Below are positions 16,843-27,591 of a stretch of 49,114 bases of DNA, piece after piece; within the stretch, counting starts at the first letter, position 1; each line of letters opens with the position of its first letter. The stretch is from Bryobacteraceae bacterium (GTDB taxonomy: Bacteria > Acidobacteriota > Terriglobia > Bryobacterales > Bryobacteraceae), in NCBI GenBank assembly GCA_017883415.1, contig JADGNR010000002.1, positions 1 through 49,114 on the forward strand. Reading direction: 5' to 3'. A model generated the notes under the pieces. The model had not been told where the DNA came from. It saw nothing but the letters and a program-made list of their open reading frames with translations, and did not search any database. Both the position numbers and the translations under genes were made by a program.

Positions 16843-18498
16843 ATGCGAAAGTGGTTGCTGGTCTTTGGCTTGGCGTGCCTGGTTGCGGCGCAGGAAACGG
16901 TGGACGAAAGCGCCATCGCGAAAATCCGCTCCGAAGAGATGGAGCATTCGCAGATCCTGCACACGCTGCACATGCTCACGGACCGGTACGGGCCGCGCCT
17001 CACAGGGTCGCCCAACTACGAAAGCGCTGCCAAGTGGGCCGTGAGCCAGCTCACCGAATGGGGTTTCAAGAACGCCCACCTGGAGCCGTGGGACTTCGGG
17101 CATCCCGGCTGGATGAATGAGCGGGCCGCGGGGTACATGGTGGCGCCGGTGCGCGAGAATCTCAAGTTCGAGGTGCTGGGATGGACGCCGTCGACCAGGG
17201 GCACGGTGACGGGCCCGGCCATCGAAGTGATTGTGCCGCAGGGACCGTTTCCAACGCCGTTGCCGCCTACCGATGCCGCTGCCGCGGGGGGACGCGGTGG
17301 GCGGGGCGCGCCCCAGCGCCTGCCTCCCACCAAAGAGGAGATGATCCAGTGGGTGCAGGACACCAAGGACAAAGTCCGTTGGAAGATCGTGCTGGTCGGC
17401 AAGGCCGCGGTGGTGCCGGTGAATTTCAATCCGCCGCAGTTGCGGCGCGACGATGCCGCGGTGAAGCAGAGCTATGACCCGGACAATCCAAATGCCGGCC
17501 GCGGCGGGCGCGGCGGCGGCACTCCTCCGGCGGAACCCGGCCGGCTTACGGCGGCCCAGGTCACGGAAATGGTGGACGCCATGCTCCTGGAGAACGGCGC
17601 GCTGCTGCGGATCAACGACGCCGGCATGGGCCACGGGCTGATCCGCGCATTTCAGAACCGCACCTACGATTCGGCCAAGGTGGTTCCGACGGTAGTGCTA
17701 CGCAACGAGGATTACGGCCGCATCGAGCGCCTGCTCCAGGACGGCGAAGACGTCAGGCTGGAGTTCAACATCGTCAACCGCGATTACCCCGAGGGCAAGA
17801 CCGCCTACAACGTGGTGGCGGAAATCCCGGGCACGGATAAGGCCGATGAGATCGTGATGCTCGGCGGGCATCTCGACTCGTGGCACGCGGCGACGGGTGC
17901 AACCGACAACGCCATCGGGTCTTCCATGATGATGGAGGCCGCGCGGCTGATTCAGGCACTCAAGCTGAAGCCGCGGCGCACCATCCGGGTGGGCCTGTGG
18001 GCCGGCGAAGAAGAGGGGCTGCTCGGGTCCAAAGCGTACGTGGAGCAGCATTTCGGCACCTTCGAGAACCCCAAGCCGGAGTGGGCCACCCTCGATTGTT
18101 ACTTCAATATCGATTCGGGCACGGGCAGAGTGCGCGGCGCCAATATTTTCGGGCCTCCGGAAGCGGCGGCAGTGCTGCGCCCGGTGCTCGCGCTGTTCGA
18201 AGATTTCGGCGTGGCCGGGGCGAACTCCACCAGCAGCCGGGCGACGGGCGGCACCGACAGCACTTCCTTCAATGCCGCCGGACTACCGGGCATCGGGCTG
18301 GCGCAGGACCCCATCGAGTATCAGAGCTTCACCTGGCACACCAATCTGGACACCTACGAGCGCATCGTGCCCGACGACGCGATGAAGGCCGCCTCCACCA
18401 TTGCGGCGGCGGTGTGGCACGTGGCCAACCGGGAGCAGATGATCCCGCGGTTCGGCAAGGAGCAGATGCCACCGCCGGCGAAAGCGCCAGCGCGATAG
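16843..18498 (+). CDS. M28 family zinc aminopeptidase, exported
   Basis: 551 residues. Signal peptide MRKWLLVFGLACLVAA. A PA-type insert lies between N-terminal strands and the catalytic part. The M28 zinc ligands are visible: His and Asp in MLGGHLDSWH, Asp in GATDNAIGSS, the Glu pair in LWAGEEEGLLGS, Asp in YFNIDSGTG and His in SFTWHTNLDTYE. It removes N-terminal residues from peptides in the periplasm. An upstream in-frame ATG at 16831 would add MLFS. Residues near 150 and 225 are Gly/Arg-rich low-complexity linkers. It is convergent with the cytochrome gene, with 55 bases between. Confidence 0.88.
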   Translation: MRKWLLVFGLACLVAAQETVDESAIAKIRSEEMEHSQILHTLHMLTDRYGPRLTGSPNYESAAKWAVSQLTEWGFKNAHLEPWDFGHPGWMNERAAGYMVAPVRENLKFEVLGWTPSTRGTVTGPAIEVIVPQGPFPTPLPPTDAAAAGGRGGRGAPQRLPPTKEEMIQWVQDTKDKVRWKIVLVGKAAVVPVNFNPPQLRRDDAAVKQSYDPDNPNAGRGGRGGGTPPAEPGRLTAAQVTEMVDAMLLENGALLRINDAGMGHGLIRAFQNRTYDSAKVVPTVVLRNEDYGRIERLLQDGEDVRLEFNIVNRDYPEGKTAYNVVAEIPGTDKADEIVMLGGHLDSWHAATGATDNAIGSSMMMEAARLIQALKLKPRRTIRVGLWAGEEEGLLGSKAYVEQHFGTFENPKPEWATLDCYFNIDSGTGRVRGANIFGPPEAAAVLRPVLALFEDFGVAGANSTSSRATGGTDSTSFNAAGLPGIGLAQDPIEYQSFTWHTNLDTYERIVPDDAMKAASTIAAAVWHVANREQMIPRFGKEQMPPPAKAPAR

Positions 18499-18553: not shown

Positions 18554-21337
18554 CTACCGGTAGGCGAATAGCATGGCGTAGACGATCAGGGCGATCATCA
18601 GCATGCCCAGGGTGAGCGCGGTGAAGCCCAGGCGCCGCCAGAATTTCTGCGCGCGGGCGGGCGGGGCGGGCATCAGGGACTGCTCGAGCTGGCCGCTCTC
18701 CACCATCTGCTGGTATTCGCGCGGGCGATCGCGCTGGAACTCTTCGAGCGGCATGCCGCCGGTGAAAATCCCCGTATCGATGGGGAATTTCTCGGGGCGG
18801 AAATGCGTGTTGAAGAAGTGCACCACGAAGATGAAGCTCACCGCCAGCAGAGCTTCGTCGCTATGGATGGTGGTGGCCACATTCACCGCCCAGCCGGGGA
18901 ACAGGCGGGTAAAGAACTCGGGGAACCAGAGCAGCAGGCCGGTGCCGCCGATCACCGCGACGCCCCAAAAGACGGCGAAGTAATCGAACTTCTCCCAGTA
19001 GGTCCAGCGGCCGTAGAGCGGCCGTTCCCCGCGTCCGCCGAACCATTTCAGCGAGGCGGTGAATTCGCGCCAGTCGCGCCCGTTGAACAGCATGCTCTCC
19101 GGGCCGGCGATGAAGCGCAGCCAGCTCCCGCCGCTCTGGCGCTTCTGGCGGATCACGTCGTAGATGTGCAGTCCGAAATAGGTAAAGGTCAGCAGGGCGC
19201 AGAAGCGGTGGATCAGGCCGGCCGCCTCGAAGCCTCCCACCAGGCGGGCCACGAATTTTGCCCAGCCGGCATAAGAGAACTTCAGGATCATGCCGGTCAT
19301 GGCGAGCCCCAGGAAACTGGAGACCACCATCAGGTGGAGGTTGCGCTGAAAGGGCTTGAATCGGCGCACGTATTGCCCGCCGGGGCCGTGGCCATTCTTG
19401 TTCTGTTTGCGGTAGTCGAACGAACGGGGCAGCCAGGCGATGGTATGGGCGCCGGAGACCACCAGCGTACCCACCAGCAGCGTGGTCATGCCCCAGAACG
19501 TGTAGAACAGGAACGGGTACTTCTTGGGATCGTGGTGGGTGGCATGGGTGAGGTATCCGGCGAACTGCCGGTGCGATCCCATGTGGCACTTCCCGCAGGT
19601 GTTGACGATGTTGTTCCGGCTCAGCCGGGAGCGCGGATTGTTCACCGGCAGGATATCGTGCGAGCCGTGGCAATCGTAGCACTTGGCGGTCTGCAGGTAG
19701 CCCAGCTTGGAGACCTTGCCGTGGAACGTCTCGAAATACGCCTCGGTGATCTGCTGGTGGCAGCGCCCGCACTGGTCCATGATGTGTAATCGGAAGTTGG
19801 AGAGGTCGGTGCGCTGGATGCTGTGGGCGGTATGACACCCGGAGCACACGGGCAGCTCCTTATTGGTCTTGGTGACCTCCGGACTGTGGACGCTGGCGTG
19901 GAACATCTCATAGATGCCGCGGTGGCACTGCGCGCAGGTCTGCGCGATGTTGGCGCGGTTCACGCTGGAGCGCGGATCATTGCTGGGCAACTCGTGATGC
20001 GCGGTGTGACAGTCGGCGCAATTGGCGGTCACCGTGAGGCCGCTTTGCAGCAGGCCTTTGCCGTGGATGCTCTCCCGGTAGTGCTCCACGATCTGGTCCT
20101 GCTTCCCGGTGTAGCGCAGGGCCGCCTTTTGGCCCGACAGGTGGCACTTGGCGCAGAGCGCCGGCACGTTGCGGGAAAACGTGGGCGAGCCGGAGTCGGC
20201 CTTACCGCGGGTGCCATGCGGGCTGTGGCAATCCTTGCACCCGGGCGCGTCGGGGCTGCCGGCGGCCGCCAGCGTGCCATGCGTGCTTTCGCGATACTGG
20301 GCGACCACCTTGTCGTGGCAGATGGAGCAGTCCACCTTGGAAGGCATGGTGTCGCAGGGCCGGCCATGGGCAGGCGTGCCCCCGGTGTGGCACTGCACGC
20401 ACGCCTTCTGGGCGTGCTTCGACCCGGCCAGTTCGGCCTGGTTGACGAACAGCGACACGGTCTGGCCGGCGCGCGTTGCCGTCAGGTTCGGGTTGCTGTG
20501 GCAGCGCTGGCAGTCGCGGTCGCTCATGCCCTCGCTATAAAAGACCTTGCGTACTTTGTGCGGCTCGTGGCAATCCACGCAGGCGGGGATGAGGTTCGGC
20601 CCCTTCTCCCATAGCTCGCCGCGAATCACCTTGCGATGCACCGTCTCGATCTGCCCATGGCATTTGGTGCATGTTTTGGCGATGTTGGCCTTGGCGATGG
20701 AGGAGCGGGGGTCGGTGTGCGGCAGCACGAAGTGCGCGGTGTGGCAACTGGTGCAGACCGCCGCGATGGTGAGACCCTTCTCGAAAAGCGCCTGGCCATG
20801 GAGACTGTCCTTGTAATTCTCGAGGATATTGGCTTGCGGAATGTTGTGGGTCAGGCTGACGGGCGTGCCTTCCCGGTGACAGCCGCCGCAGAGGCGCGGA
20901 ATCTCCATGGTCGAAGTGGGAGACTTCGGGTTGGAGGGCCGCAGGATATTGTGTGTTCCATGGCAGCTCTTGCAGCCCGGGGCGAGGGTGTCGCCGTGCG
21001 CCGACGCCTTGCCGTGCAGGCTGGCAGTGTACTGCGACTGCTCCTCGGAATGGCAGGAGCCGCAATCCACTTTGGACAGCTTTTCCGGATGGGGGAAATC
21101 CTTTTTCGCGAGATCGCTGTGGCAGGCTGCGCATTCGAGCGACGCATGGGGCGAGGCCGCCAGGGCGGCTGCGTCGAAGCGCGGTGGCACGCCCGCTTCC
21201 CGTTTGCCGGTGCGGGGTCCGGGTTCGTGGCATCCGGCGCACTCCTCGGAGCCCGGCGGGGTTTTGGACTTCTGCTGACCCGGCAAGGCCACGACCAGGG
21301 TTCCAGCCACGAATATCAGACGGAGGAGGTTCTTCAT
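18554..21337 (-). CDS. 19-haem cytochrome c fused to a membrane cytochrome b-like domain
   Basis: 927 residues. Signal peptide MKNLLRLIFVAGTLVVALPG. Residues of roughly 33-585 contain 19 CxxCH haem c sites (CAGCH, CAACH, CGSCH, CKSCH and so on to CGKCH). Repeating modules of the form SxHG...C..CH.xH...P.S...C..CH indicate internal duplication. From about 615 there are several hydrophobic helices, including FWGMTTLLVGTLVVSGAHTI, LIHRFCALLTFTYFGLHIYD and ALLAVSFIFVVHFF, with His residues placed as in FdnI/cytochrome b-type quinone-reactive subunits. Inference: it moves electrons between the quinone pool and periplasmic redox partners. It has its own promoter at 21389-21417 and lies about 3 kb from the formate dehydrogenase operon. 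Confidence 0.88.
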   Translation of the reverse strand: MKNLLRLIFVAGTLVVALPGQQKSKTPPGSEECAGCHEPGPRTGKREAGVPPRFDAAALAASPHASLECAACHSDLAKKDFPHPEKLSKVDCGSCHSEEQSQYTASLHGKASAHGDTLAPGCKSCHGTHNILRPSNPKSPTSTMEIPRLCGGCHREGTPVSLTHNIPQANILENYKDSLHGQALFEKGLTIAAVCTSCHTAHFVLPHTDPRSSIAKANIAKTCTKCHGQIETVHRKVIRGELWEKGPNLIPACVDCHEPHKVRKVFYSEGMSDRDCQRCHSNPNLTATRAGQTVSLFVNQAELAGSKHAQKACVQCHTGGTPAHGRPCDTMPSKVDCSICHDKVVAQYRESTHGTLAAAGSPDAPGCKDCHSPHGTRGKADSGSPTFSRNVPALCAKCHLSGQKAALRYTGKQDQIVEHYRESIHGKGLLQSGLTVTANCADCHTAHHELPSNDPRSSVNRANIAQTCAQCHRGIYEMFHASVHSPEVTKTNKELPVCSGCHTAHSIQRTDLSNFRLHIMDQCGRCHQQITEAYFETFHGKVSKLGYLQTAKCYDCHGSHDILPVNNPRSRLSRNNIVNTCGKCHMGSHRQFAGYLTHATHHDPKKYPFLFYTFWGMTTLLVGTLVVSGAHTIAWLPRSFDYRKQNKNGHGPGGQYVRRFKPFQRNLHLMVVSSFLGLAMTGMILKFSYAGWAKFVARLVGGFEAAGLIHRFCALLTFTYFGLHIYDVIRQKRQSGGSWLRFIAGPESMLFNGRDWREFTASLKWFGGRGERPLYGRWTYWEKFDYFAVFWGVAVIGGTGLLLWFPEFFTRLFPGWAVNVATTIHSDEALLAVSFIFVVHFFNTHFRPEKFPIDTGIFTGGMPLEEFQRDRPREYQQMVESGQLEQSLMPAPPARAQKFWRRLGFTALTLGMLMIALIVYAMLFAYR

Positions 21338-21388
21338 CGAGGTTTTGGCCTGCTGCGCCGCTCCAATAACAGAGTAAAGGACCCTTTG

Positions 21389-21417
21389 ATCTTATCAACT
21401 GTAGAATTCTACGTCAA
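21389..21417 (-). promoter_or_regulatory. Sigma70-like promoter of the cytochrome gene with internal palindrome
   Basis: On the minus strand TTGACG (21412-21417) and TAAGAT (21389-21394) are separated by exactly 17 bases. The spacer contains the perfect 12-bp palindrome GTAGAATTCTAC (21401-21412), which touches the -35 box. This is the classic place for a repressor or activator site. The start codon follows about 50 bases downstream. Confidence 0.65.
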
Positions 21418-21478
21418 GGCGTGCAGGGCCGAATGTGGGGAAAACCAACAGTCCAGGTGCGGGCGTACCATAGGGCGC

Positions 21479-22078
21479 ATGGGGCAGGTTGCGATGGCGG
21501 CGGCAATCCTGGTGGCCACGACGGCGCTGGCCAGGGCCGGTGTATGTACCGGCGACGGGCAGCCGAGGCACGAGTTCCGGCTTCTGGCGGGCTATTCGCC
21601 CGAGGCGGCCACGTTGATCGGCACGGCCACGGACCGGCGCTTCGGCATGGTGGAGTTCAGTTACACCTACCGCTGCTGGTCGTGGAATGCGGTCTCGATC
21701 GGCTACACCGCCGGTGTAATTCCCGCAGCCTTCGTTTTCCAGCCGCGGCAGACTGTCATCCCCAGCCATGCGGTGTACGGCTTTGCGGTGATGCCCGCGG
21801 GATTCTTTGCCGAATTCGCCCGGAGGCGGCGGGTGCATCCGGTGGCGGAGGCCAATGGCGGCATCCTCGCTTCCACGGAGCCCATTCCGGAGCGCGGCAA
21901 CAATGCGACCGGCTTGAATTTTCTGTTCAATTTGGGCGGCGGAATCCGGTTCGCGGCCGGGCGGGGCGCGATCACGGTAGGATATCGATTTCTGCACATC
22001 TCCAACGCCGGCACGACGGATTTTAATCCCGGCCTGGACAACAATGTGTTTTACTTGAGTTGGTCTTTCCTGCGATGA
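21479..22078 (+). CDS. PagL-like acyloxyacyl hydrolase (lipid A 3-O-deacylase family)
   Basis: 199 residues: signal peptide MGQVAMAAAILVATTALARA, then an amphipathic beta-barrel pattern ending in an aromatic-rich last strand (NVFYLSWSF). Near the C-terminus RFLHISNAGTTDFNPGLD aligns with the PagL active-site segment, in which His and Ser are followed 14 residues after the His by Glu. Here that position is Asp, a conservative change. The likely role is removal of an acyl chain from lipid A in the outer membrane. An alternative start at 21494 gives a shorter signal. The TGA stop overlaps the ATG of the RHH gene (ATGA at 22075-22078). Confidence 0.75.
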   Translation: MGQVAMAAAILVATTALARAGVCTGDGQPRHEFRLLAGYSPEAATLIGTATDRRFGMVEFSYTYRCWSWNAVSIGYTAGVIPAAFVFQPRQTVIPSHAVYGFAVMPAGFFAEFARRRRVHPVAEANGGILASTEPIPERGNNATGLNFLFNLGGGIRFAAGRGAITVGYRFLHISNAGTTDFNPGLDNNVFYLSWSFLR

Positions 22079-23603: not shown

Positions 23604-23680
<77 letters not shown>

Positions 23681-24408: not shown

Positions 24409-27400
24409 ATGACACCTACGCGAAGGACTTTCTTGAAGATCGGCGCCGGGGGGCTGGTGACTTCCGTTCTCGGCTTCGATCTGCAGCCCGCCTACGCGCA
24501 GGCCCGCGAATTGAAGATTTCCCGCACCACCGAGACGCGCTCCACCTGCCCGTACTGCGCGGTAAGCTGCGGCGTCATTATTCACACCCTGGGCGACAAG
24601 GCGAAGAACGTCACACCGCAGGTGGTGCATGTGGAGGGCGACCCCGACCATCCCATCAACCGGGGGACGCTCTGCCCCAAGGGGTCGTCGCTGCTGCAGG
24701 ACATTGTGAACCCGCGCCGTCTGATGAAACCGCAGGTGCGGCGTCCGGGGTCGGACCACTGGGAGGACATCTCCTGGGACGCGGCCATCGACGAGATCGG
24801 CCACTTAGTCAAGAAGACGCGCGACGAAACGTTTGTAACTACCGATGCGCAGGGACGCACGGTCAATCGCTGCGAAGGCATCGCCTGGAACGGCGGCTGC
24901 ACCGACACCAACGAGTTTAATTACCTGGTGGTGAAGGCCATGCGCAGCCTGGGGGTCTGCTACCTGGAAAACCAGGCCCGTGTTTGACACGGCCCCACGG
25001 TCTCCAGTTTGGGGGCCACATTCGGTCGCGGGGCGATGACCAACGGGTGGATCGACATCAAGAACACCGACATGATGTTGATCATGGGCGGCAACCCGGC
25101 GGAGAACCATCCGTGCGGCTTCAAGTGGCCGATCGAGGCGAAGCGGCAGCGCAACGCCAAGATGATCGTGGTGGACCCGCGATTCACGCGCACGGCGGCC
25201 ACCGCGGACCTGTTCCTGCAAATCCGCGCCGGCTCCGATATCGCCTTCCTGGGCGGCATGGTGCGGTACGCGCTCGAAAACAACCGCATCGCGCGCGATT
25301 ACCTGCTGAACTACACCAACGCCGCCTTCATTGTGAAGCAGGGCTTCAAACTGCCGGAAGACGGCCTGTTCTCCGGGTTCGACGCCGCCACCAACACCTA
25401 CAACAGAGCCACCTGGAACTATGAGGAGGGCGGAAGCCTCACCGGGAAAGCGGACACGGCAGGCGACACGAAGACGCCGGCGGCGCCCGCGGCCGCCGTC
25501 GCCGGGGGGCCCGCGCCAGCACCGCCCGGCATGCCGGCCAACACGGCCTACGACTTTTCGCTCGAGCACCCGCGCTCGGTCTATCAGTTACTCAAGCGCC
25601 AATACTCGCGCTACACGCCCGAGATGGTGGAGCGCATCACGGGGATTCCCAAAGACCAGTTTCTGAAGGCCGCCGACCTGTTCACGTCCATACGCAAGGA
25701 CGGGGACATGAAGAAGGCCGGCACCATCATCTACGCCGTGGGCTGGACGCAGCACAGCATGGGCACGCAGATCATCCGCACCGCGGCCATTCTGCAACTG
25801 CTGCTGGGCAACGTGGGGCGCGCCGGCGGCGGAGTCAACGCGCTGCGCGGGCACTCCAACATTCAGGGCGCCACCGATATGGCCGGCGTGTTCGACGTTC
25901 TGCCCGGCTATCTCAAGATGCCCAATCCCACGGACACGGACCTGAAGACCTACCTGGCGCGGGTCACTCCCAAATCTGCCAAGCCGGGGCCGTGGGATTC
26001 GTTCAACTACTGGTCCAATATGCCGCGCTTCACGGTGTCGTACCTCAAGGCCGTGTACGGCGATGCCGCGAAGAAGGAAAACGACTTCGCCTTCCACTAC
26101 CTTCCCAAGATCGATCACAGCTACGCCTGGGCCGAGATTTGGGACAACATGGCACGAGGAGGCGTGAAGGGCCTGCTGGCGTTCGGCATGAACGGCGTAT
26201 CCATTGGCCCGAACTCGCAGAAGAACATCAATGCCCTGAAGAAGGCCGAGTGGCTGGTGGTGTGCGAAATCTATCCCGACGAGACCAGCGAATTCTGGAG
26301 ATCGCCGGGCATCACGCCCGATCAGATGAAACAGATCCCCACCACGGTCTACCGCCTGCCGGGTGCGGGCTTCGCCGAGAAGGACGGCACATTTGTAAAC
26401 TCGGCGCGCTGGCTGCAATGGAAGAACGCGGCGCTGCCTCCGCCCGGGCAGGCGCGGCTGGATCAGGAAATCCTGGCGCGCATCTATTTGAAGGTTCGCG
26501 AGCTATATAAGAAGGAAGGCGGCAAGTTCCCCGACCCGGTGCTGAACGCCGTCTGGGGCTACACCAATCCGCAGAGCCCGTCGCTCACCGAAGTAGCCCG
26601 CGAGATCAACGGGCGTGCGCTGGCCGACGTCACCGACGACAAACTCAACCAGACCATCAAGGCCGGGCAGCAGCTTCCAGGGTTCGCGTGGCTGCGCGAC
26701 GACGGCTCCACCACCAGCGGCAACTGGCTGTACTGCGGATCGTGGACCGAGGCCGGAGCGCAGTCGCAGCGGCGCGGCACGGAAGATCCCTCGGGCCTCG
26801 GCATCTATCCCAACTGGGGCTGGTCCTGGCCGGCCAACCGGCGCGTGATGTACAACCGCGCCTCCTGCGACCTGGACGGCAAGCCGTGGGATCCGGACCG
26901 CAAACAGGTCTGGTGGAACGAAGCGGCGCAGCGCTGGGCGGGCAACGACGTTCCCGATTTCAAAGTGGATTCCCCGCCCAAGGACCACATGGGCCCGTTC
27001 ATCATGAATGCCGAGGGCGTGGGACGGCTGTTCGTGCCGCTGGCCGCGCTGGCCGACGGGCCGTTCCCCGAACACTACGAGCCGTTCGAGAGCCCGGTGG
27101 CCAATCCGCTGCATCCCAACCAGTCGAACAACCCGATGGCCAAGCGGTTCAAATCCCCGGAGGACAAGCTGGGCACGCCCGCCGAGGGCTACAACATCGT
27201 CTGCACCACGTACCGGCTCACCGAGCACTATCACTACTGGACCAAGAACAACCCCATGAACGTCCAGCTTGTGCCGGAGCCGTTCGTGGAAATTCCCGCG
27301 GAGCTGGCCGACGACCTGGGCCTGCACGGCGGCGAAAAGATCAAGCTGACCAGCGCGCGCGGGCACTACATCGCCAAGGCCATGGTCACGCGGCGCATCA

Positions 27401-27591
27401 AGTCCATGATGATCGACGGCAAGAAAACCTATCAGGTGGGCGTGCCCATTCACTGGGGCTATCGCGGGATCGCCGAAGACGAAGGCAAGACCGCGCTGAC
27501 TCCGGCCAACCTGCTGTCGCCGGCGGTCACCGATCCCAACGCCTACACACCCGAGTTCAAAGGTTTCCTGGTGAAAGTGGAGAAGGTCTGA
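24409..27591 (+). CDS. fdnG: Selenocysteine formate dehydrogenase, catalytic alpha subunit (UGA at 24985-24987 read as Sec)
   Basis: Oxidises formate to CO2 at a molybdenum (or tungsten) bis-pyranopterin centre in the periplasm. 1060 residues if the in-frame UGA is read through. A Tat signal (TRRTFLKIGAGGLVTS) leads to the 4Fe-4S ligands Cys47, Cys50, Cys54 and Cys89 (CPYCAVSC ... GTLCPKG). At residue 193 the context is ENQARV-UGA-HGPTVSSLGATFGRG, the invariant Sec site of FdnG/FdoG. After UGA the frame continues for 867 codons with full family similarity (MTNGWIDIKN, GGNPAENHP, GHSNIQGATDM). GGCCCC (24991-24996) and GGGGCC (25012-25017) can form a hairpin right after the UGA, as required of a bacterial SECIS. 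An Ala/Pro-rich insert lies near residues 345-385. The stop overlaps the beta subunit start by one base (TGATG). Confidence 0.93.
24985..25017 (+). promoter_or_regulatory. Selenocysteine UGA codon with putative SECIS hairpin
   Basis: In-frame TGA at 24985-24987, followed by stem GGCCCC/GGGGCC (24991-24996 with 25012-25017) enclosing a loop of about 15 bases. Its distance from the UGA is typical of bacterial SECIS elements, though I cannot verify the SelB-recognised apical bases by eye. Confidence 0.7.

Follow-up and report, generated by a model that had tools for sequence, protein, structure and literature searches.

Genes and sequence features at the cytochrome locus

The window (the whole stretch analysed here, 49,114 nt of a Bryobacteraceae genome) contains, on its minus strand, a gene for a multihaem c-type cytochrome with a C-terminal cytochrome b561-like domain, and a gene for a PagL-like lipid A deacylase, whose start codon was chosen by us, is divergent from it (Table 1). 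The cytochrome scored over the cut-offs of Cytochrome_C7, Cytochrom_c3_2, Paired_CXXCH_1 and Ni_hydr_CYTB in Pfam and matched the DmsE-type decahaem profile of NCBIfam under that profile's cut-off. The protein was matched in 34 of 150 family genomes, and several relatives carry another divergent gene in the place of the PagL-like gene. In one genome, Bryobacterales UBA690 (L064), a gene for a PAS and sigma-54-activator regulator adjoins the cytochrome gene and is convergent with it. Further away in the window lies a formate dehydrogenase-N operon. Its alpha subunit gene, which a mechanical list of open reading frames broke in two, contains an in-frame TGA that fits selenocysteine, with an Rfam SECIS_3 match at this codon, and a tRNA gene was detected with Rfam.

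Table 1. Locations of the features described in the text (window positions unless a locus handle is given)
Feature	Location	Strand	Basis or remark
Multihaem c-type cytochrome, C-terminal cytochrome b561-like domain, 927 aa (P0001)	18554-21337	minus	Pfam
GTCCTTTACTC	21372-21382	minus	GTCtttTAnTC in relatives (alignment)
-10 box TAAGAT, with TG before it	21389-21394	minus	Consensus scan; first base T in 16/18, ungapped
Asymmetric 29-bp element TTTTCCACAnnTTGACGnnnAATTCnACA	21400-21428	minus	Conserved in relatives; covers the -35 box and upstream spacer half
Perfect 12-bp palindrome GTAGAATTCTAC	21401-21412		Sequence; perfect in 2/21 promoters
-35 box TTGACG	21412-21417	minus	Sequence; TTGA in 18/18 promoters (by construction, as these were anchored on TTGA), C in 16/18, G in 17/18
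Left 9 bp of the element, CCCTGCACG	21420-21428	minus	Degenerate in own genome
PagL-like lipid A deacylase	21479-22078	plus	Pfam PagL, 6.2e-16
tRNA gene	23604-23677		Rfam
Formate dehydrogenase-N alpha subunit	24409-27591		
SECIS_3 match	24982-25040		Rfam
In-frame TGA of the alpha subunit gene	24985-24987		Fits selenocysteine
PAS and sigma-54-activator regulator	L064:5795-7138		Bryobacterales UBA690
Unnamed protein	L168:5882-6451, L170:5511-5828, L057:994-1542, L058:2297-2860, L059:2304-2852		
Leader of the Hdr-like operon	L184:1353-1461, L194:1354-1463, L192:1568-1677, L193:1354-1463, L199:2835-2942		

An earlier reading of the window from the sequence alone had assigned the cytochrome gene the promoter TTGACG-17 bp-TAAGAT on the minus strand, with the palindrome GTAGAATTCTAC in the spacer as the operator of a dimeric regulator. 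The promoter is genuine, judging by its conservation in many orthologues of the family. Its two boxes, separated by 17 nt, match 9 of 12 consensus bases and form the sole promoter-like site that a consensus scan found between positions 18300 and 22300, against a chance expectation of 0.6. Given an assumed transcription start some 7 nt downstream of the -10 box, GTCCTTTACTC would lie at about +1 to +11. The sequence and the coordinates of the palindrome were also right, but it does not lie wholly inside the spacer, one base being common to the palindrome and the -35 box. Perfect 12-bp palindromes number 27 in the window, where base composition predicts 19.5, and the prediction for the 141-nt gap between the divergent genes is 0.033. 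One at such a place is uncommon, but since a reader inspects many places it is no great surprise. TAGAAT within the palindrome was considered as a -10 box on either strand and rejected, as it is unconserved and no -35 box was seen by eye at the right distance.

Conservation of the promoter and of an asymmetric element overlapping it

A recognisable version of the promoter was present at 17 of 30 orthologue loci and at L058, and no promoter box was recognised by eye at the remaining 13 (L004, L010, L017-L019, L023 and L025-L031, which were not aligned; some are partial or lie inside operons). The orthologous promoters align from TTTTCCACA, which ends 2 bases before the -35 box, to GTCtttTAnTC after the -10 box (alignment A2, from which L015, one of the 18 promoters, was left out), with a spacer of 17 or 18 bp where the -10 box is readable in relatives. 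The conserved part forms an asymmetric 29-bp element with the layout TTTTCCACA-nn-TTGACG-nnn-AATTC-n-ACA. Mean column information in the 18 promoters was 0.83 bits at spacer positions 7-17 and 0.85 bits in the left box, vs 0.29 bits in the upstream flank and 0.26 bits at spacer positions 18-22; after six near-duplicates were dropped (12 left), the values were 0.78 and 0.69 vs 0.28 and 0.24 bits, respectively.

A model built from 17 promoters found one site in the own genome, namely the cytochrome promoter, and cytochrome-operon sites in 17 of 26 relatives. Two of these had not been used in building the model: G060:C58 (E 2.7e-10), at a two-cytochrome operon, and G067:C309 (E 3.9e-9). The model gave no match at the cytochrome in 9 of the 26 cytochrome-bearing genomes, and its strong matches away from the cytochrome were G020:C120 (E 1.5e-10) and G036:C42 (E 2.7e-7). 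Among 80 loci beyond the family, L057, L058, L059 and L064, from the same kind of organism, have TTGACG or TTGACC with the element order, L063 and L024 represent one and the same promoter, and none of the remaining loci shows the element by eye. The pattern TTGACGnnnAATTCnACA matched the own genome at 24 places with up to 2 mismatches vs 4 for the control; the places other than the cytochrome promoter were judged by eye to be coding or to lack a promoter context, except for one in an AT-rich stretch (L035).

The best explanation of this conservation, with a probability of about 60%, is that the cytochrome gene has a sigma-70-type promoter, that the conserved 29-bp element takes in its -35 box and the upstream half of its spacer, and that a sequence-specific protein would read the element.

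Recurrence of the element at an Hdr-like operon

With up to 3 mismatches allowed, 15 of the 237 genomes together contained 20 sites of the element vs 1 for a reversed, composition-matched control. Eleven sites belong to the cytochrome operon, four to an Hdr-like operon and two lie beside an unnamed divergent gene (G036:C42 and the minus strand of G020:C120); three are unexplained (G042, G033 and G107:C593), one of these lying inside a coding frame. Loci that were not read directly were assigned by their places in the cytochrome search, and G236 by identity with L058. The own genome, whose left box is degenerate, gave no site at this threshold. A 33-column model (R2) run against the 237 genomes placed 15 sites at the cytochrome operon, four at the Hdr-like operon and two at the unnamed gene with E ≤ 0.02. 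Of these 21 places 19 had been part of the model, G236 being counted among them for its identity with L058. Three of the 41 weaker rows, up to E 0.3, were cytochrome promoters, and the others were no more numerous than chance would give for 237 genomes.

The Hdr-like sites (G060:C80, G086:C246, G107:C316 and the plus strand of G020:C120) come from three other genera, and the element stands there in reversed orientation upstream of the operon, 17-19 bp upstream of a TTGACA box. The element sits upstream of this separate box, so its central TTGAYG is conserved there although it does not serve as a -35 box. The four upstream regions are orthologous to one another and therefore amount to one independent case, not four. 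The operons of G020, G086 and G060 encode a QmoC-like protein (a profile match under the curated cut-off) and then an HdrA-like protein (by eye), and that of G107 encodes HdrC-like and HdrA-like proteins (by eye), with no QmoC-like match. Hydrogenase subunits were seen by eye downstream in G060 and G086, and a profile scan placed HypD near the operon in G060; in G020 and G107 the stretch read stops before any hydrogenase gene. In a profile scan, the orthologous cluster of G001, the one relative from the same genus as the own genome, gave VhuA- and VhuG-like matches under the cut-offs and a maturation protease over the cut-off. The G001 Hdr-like promoter keeps the left half of the element (TTTTCCACA-TA-TTGAAG) and lacks the right half. 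The own genome has no QmoC-like protein at E 1e-20.

Overlap of the element with the -35 box, and the lack of any further element site in the own genome, would also fit a constitutive promoter in which spacer and upstream conservation stems from polymerase contacts or DNA shape, with no regulator. This is unlikely, as the same order and spacing recurs reversed upstream of another promoter, which polymerase contacts would not explain, and as TTTTnCACAnnTTGAC is no general promoter feature: it matched the own genome at 1 place with up to 1 mismatch vs 4 for the reversed control. Its conservation marks the element as real, and its excess of sites over the control falls at functionally linked genes.

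The palindrome in orthologous promoters and elsewhere

As an operator, the palindrome did not hold up in the comparison. It is perfect in only 2 of 21 orthologous promoters, those of the own genome and G001; two further promoters keep 5 of the 6 pairs and the remainder keep 1 to 4, so that outside the genus the palindrome is unconserved. Pairwise covariation was absent in the 20 promoters compared with shuffled columns (L003, identical to L002, was dropped): positions 6-15, 7-14 and 8-13 were complementary in 5, 6 and 10 promoters vs 4.2, 4.7 and 9.1 expected, respectively. The summed symmetry of 60 vs 53.1 in the column shuffles corresponded to 2.1% of shuffles in a test that ignores relatedness, and relatedness alone can give such a mildly high value.

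The family genomes contain 26 copies of GTAGAATTCTAC (in 24 of 237) vs 4 for the reversed control. We gave this excess no weight, since palindrome and control do not have the same dinucleotides and predicted coding sequence accounts for 14 of the 23 copies read. These 23 loci, with the own locus, make up the 24 copies read by eye, the neighbours being judged without a profile scan and two copies left unread. The only one of the 23 at a cytochrome promoter is that of G001, so the search that had been proposed for the palindrome at other respiratory genes led, beyond the own genome, to a single respiratory promoter. Low conservation, together with the lack of a further respiratory promoter among the copies read, led us to reject the palindrome as a family-wide operator.

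The conserved right half is AATTCnACA, and its mirror bases on the left side are more variable. The perfect symmetry seen in the genus would come about because spacer positions 6, 8 and 14 (numbered from the -35 box), which are under little constraint, carry bases complementary to the conserved TTCnAC of the right half. On these alignments, the perfect palindrome is most likely incidental to the conserved signal, and the locus is a clean example of how comparison can bring this out. Redox control and a dimeric protein, both part of the sequence-only reading, belong to inference.

It is also conceivable, and in our view quite improbable, that within the genus the palindrome itself evolved from the asymmetric element into an operator bound by a dimer, either a repressor or an activator. 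The palindrome is perfect in both genomes of the genus, where the left box is degenerate, it consists of two TTCTAC half-sites head to head, TTCnAC being the conserved right half, and its position is favourable. Against this, the core from the -35 box to TTTACTCT differs at 2 of 47 nt between the two genomes, both outside the palindrome, and with the whole core nearly identical there is little conservation specific to the palindrome. Moreover, the palindrome is present as a single copy in the 5.84-Mb own genome, and elsewhere there is no pairwise covariation.

Putative regulator and comparison with known systems

What stands of the proposed spacer operator with a dedicated regulator is that a conserved element overlaps the promoter and recurs at a second redox operon; the palindrome as the operator is not supported. 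We consider it likely, from the distribution of sites, that the element serves a regulator of a small electron-transfer regulon which reads the asymmetric element instead of the palindrome. The putative protein would bind the element and co-regulate the cytochrome and Hdr-like operons, contacting the -35 region or competing for it at the cytochrome promoter and acting from upstream of the TTGACA box at the Hdr-like promoter. An activator fits the Hdr-like promoter better than a repressor, because the element lies upstream of the -35 box. Tandem binding is plausible, as TTCCACA and TTCnACA form direct repeats 20 bp apart with a similar inverted copy between them. No regulator gene recurring beside the cytochrome or Hdr-like operons was recognised by eye.

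More tentatively, an undescribed regulator in Solibacter-like Acidobacteriota might read the strand-oriented 29-bp element as three related half-sites of about TTCnnCAA (forward, reverse, forward), coupling the multihaem c/b conduit with an Hdr/Vhu-type, possibly electron-bifurcating, hydrogenase; membrane-level electron flow would then be tied to H2 metabolism. Should the element prove to be what it appears, it would offer a handle on transcriptional control in mostly uncultivated soil bacteria and predict that the multihaem cytochrome and the hydrogenase-linked complex switch together. The palindrome belongs to a common class of features, and the element behind it is of modest interest. The literature available to us in part yielded no paper on the motif, from which we do not claim its absence from print, and mentions both TTTTCCACA and DnaA boxes.

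The DnaA box consensus is TTWTNCACA. The left box matches it exactly and in register at 8 of 23 sites by eye, including all four Hdr-like sites, and exact boxes occur near dnaA in the family (4 in 3,483 bp at the own locus, L214, vs 53 in 807,660 bp of background), as would be expected if DnaA bound the left box and set promoter activity. We regard this as very unlikely: AATTCnACA and TTGAYG are conserved with the left box at fixed spacing, so that more than a single box would be read, the 29-bp element differs from a DnaA box in its conserved right half, the own genus has a degenerate left box (CCCTGCACG in the own genome), and of the five dnaA loci one, L213, lacks exact boxes and another, L212, carries two.

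In MerR-family promoters, the operator dyad lies in a spacer of 19-20 bp. The palindrome likewise lies between the -35 and -10 boxes, but the spacer here is 17 bp and the dyad is unconserved; no MerR-like gene was recognised by eye in the gene calls of the window and some relatives. Activator sites of AraC/XylS-type promoters have tandem half-sites overlapping the -35 box, which resemble the arrangement here, where two similar boxes, TTCCACA and TTCnACA, flank the -35 box at a distance of 20 bp from each other, but the middle part of the element is conserved too and no such regulator was found. The FNR/CRP-type site is TTGAT-N4-ATCAA, and TTGAT-AAG-ATCAA overlaps the -10 box of the cytochrome promoter; this reading of TTGATAAGATCAA was rejected, as the spacing is 3 instead of 4 and the site is unconserved (TTGCT in G001).

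Other conserved sequences near the element and in orthologues

The Hdr-like operon is preceded by a leader of some 105 nt that is very strongly conserved in five genomes and was considered as a candidate leader RNA. Four loci searched gave no Rfam match up to E 1, and the consensus fold (-28.8 kcal/mol) showed a compensatory change in 0 of 32 pairs; on these two grounds the RNA reading was set aside, the leader counting as no more than a candidate RNA. The unnamed protein, most copies of which are 180-190 aa and start with MDVRS or MYAPN, is divergent from the element in several genomes. Its L168 copy had no Pfam match, and at G036:C42 the protein and the element occur with no cytochrome alongside. 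Three orthologue loci from other Acidobacteria (L077, L082 and L096) have another promoter-like sequence in common some 106 nt before the expected gene start, consisting of TTGACA and then a conserved run rich in G that ends in TATGTC or a similar sequence.
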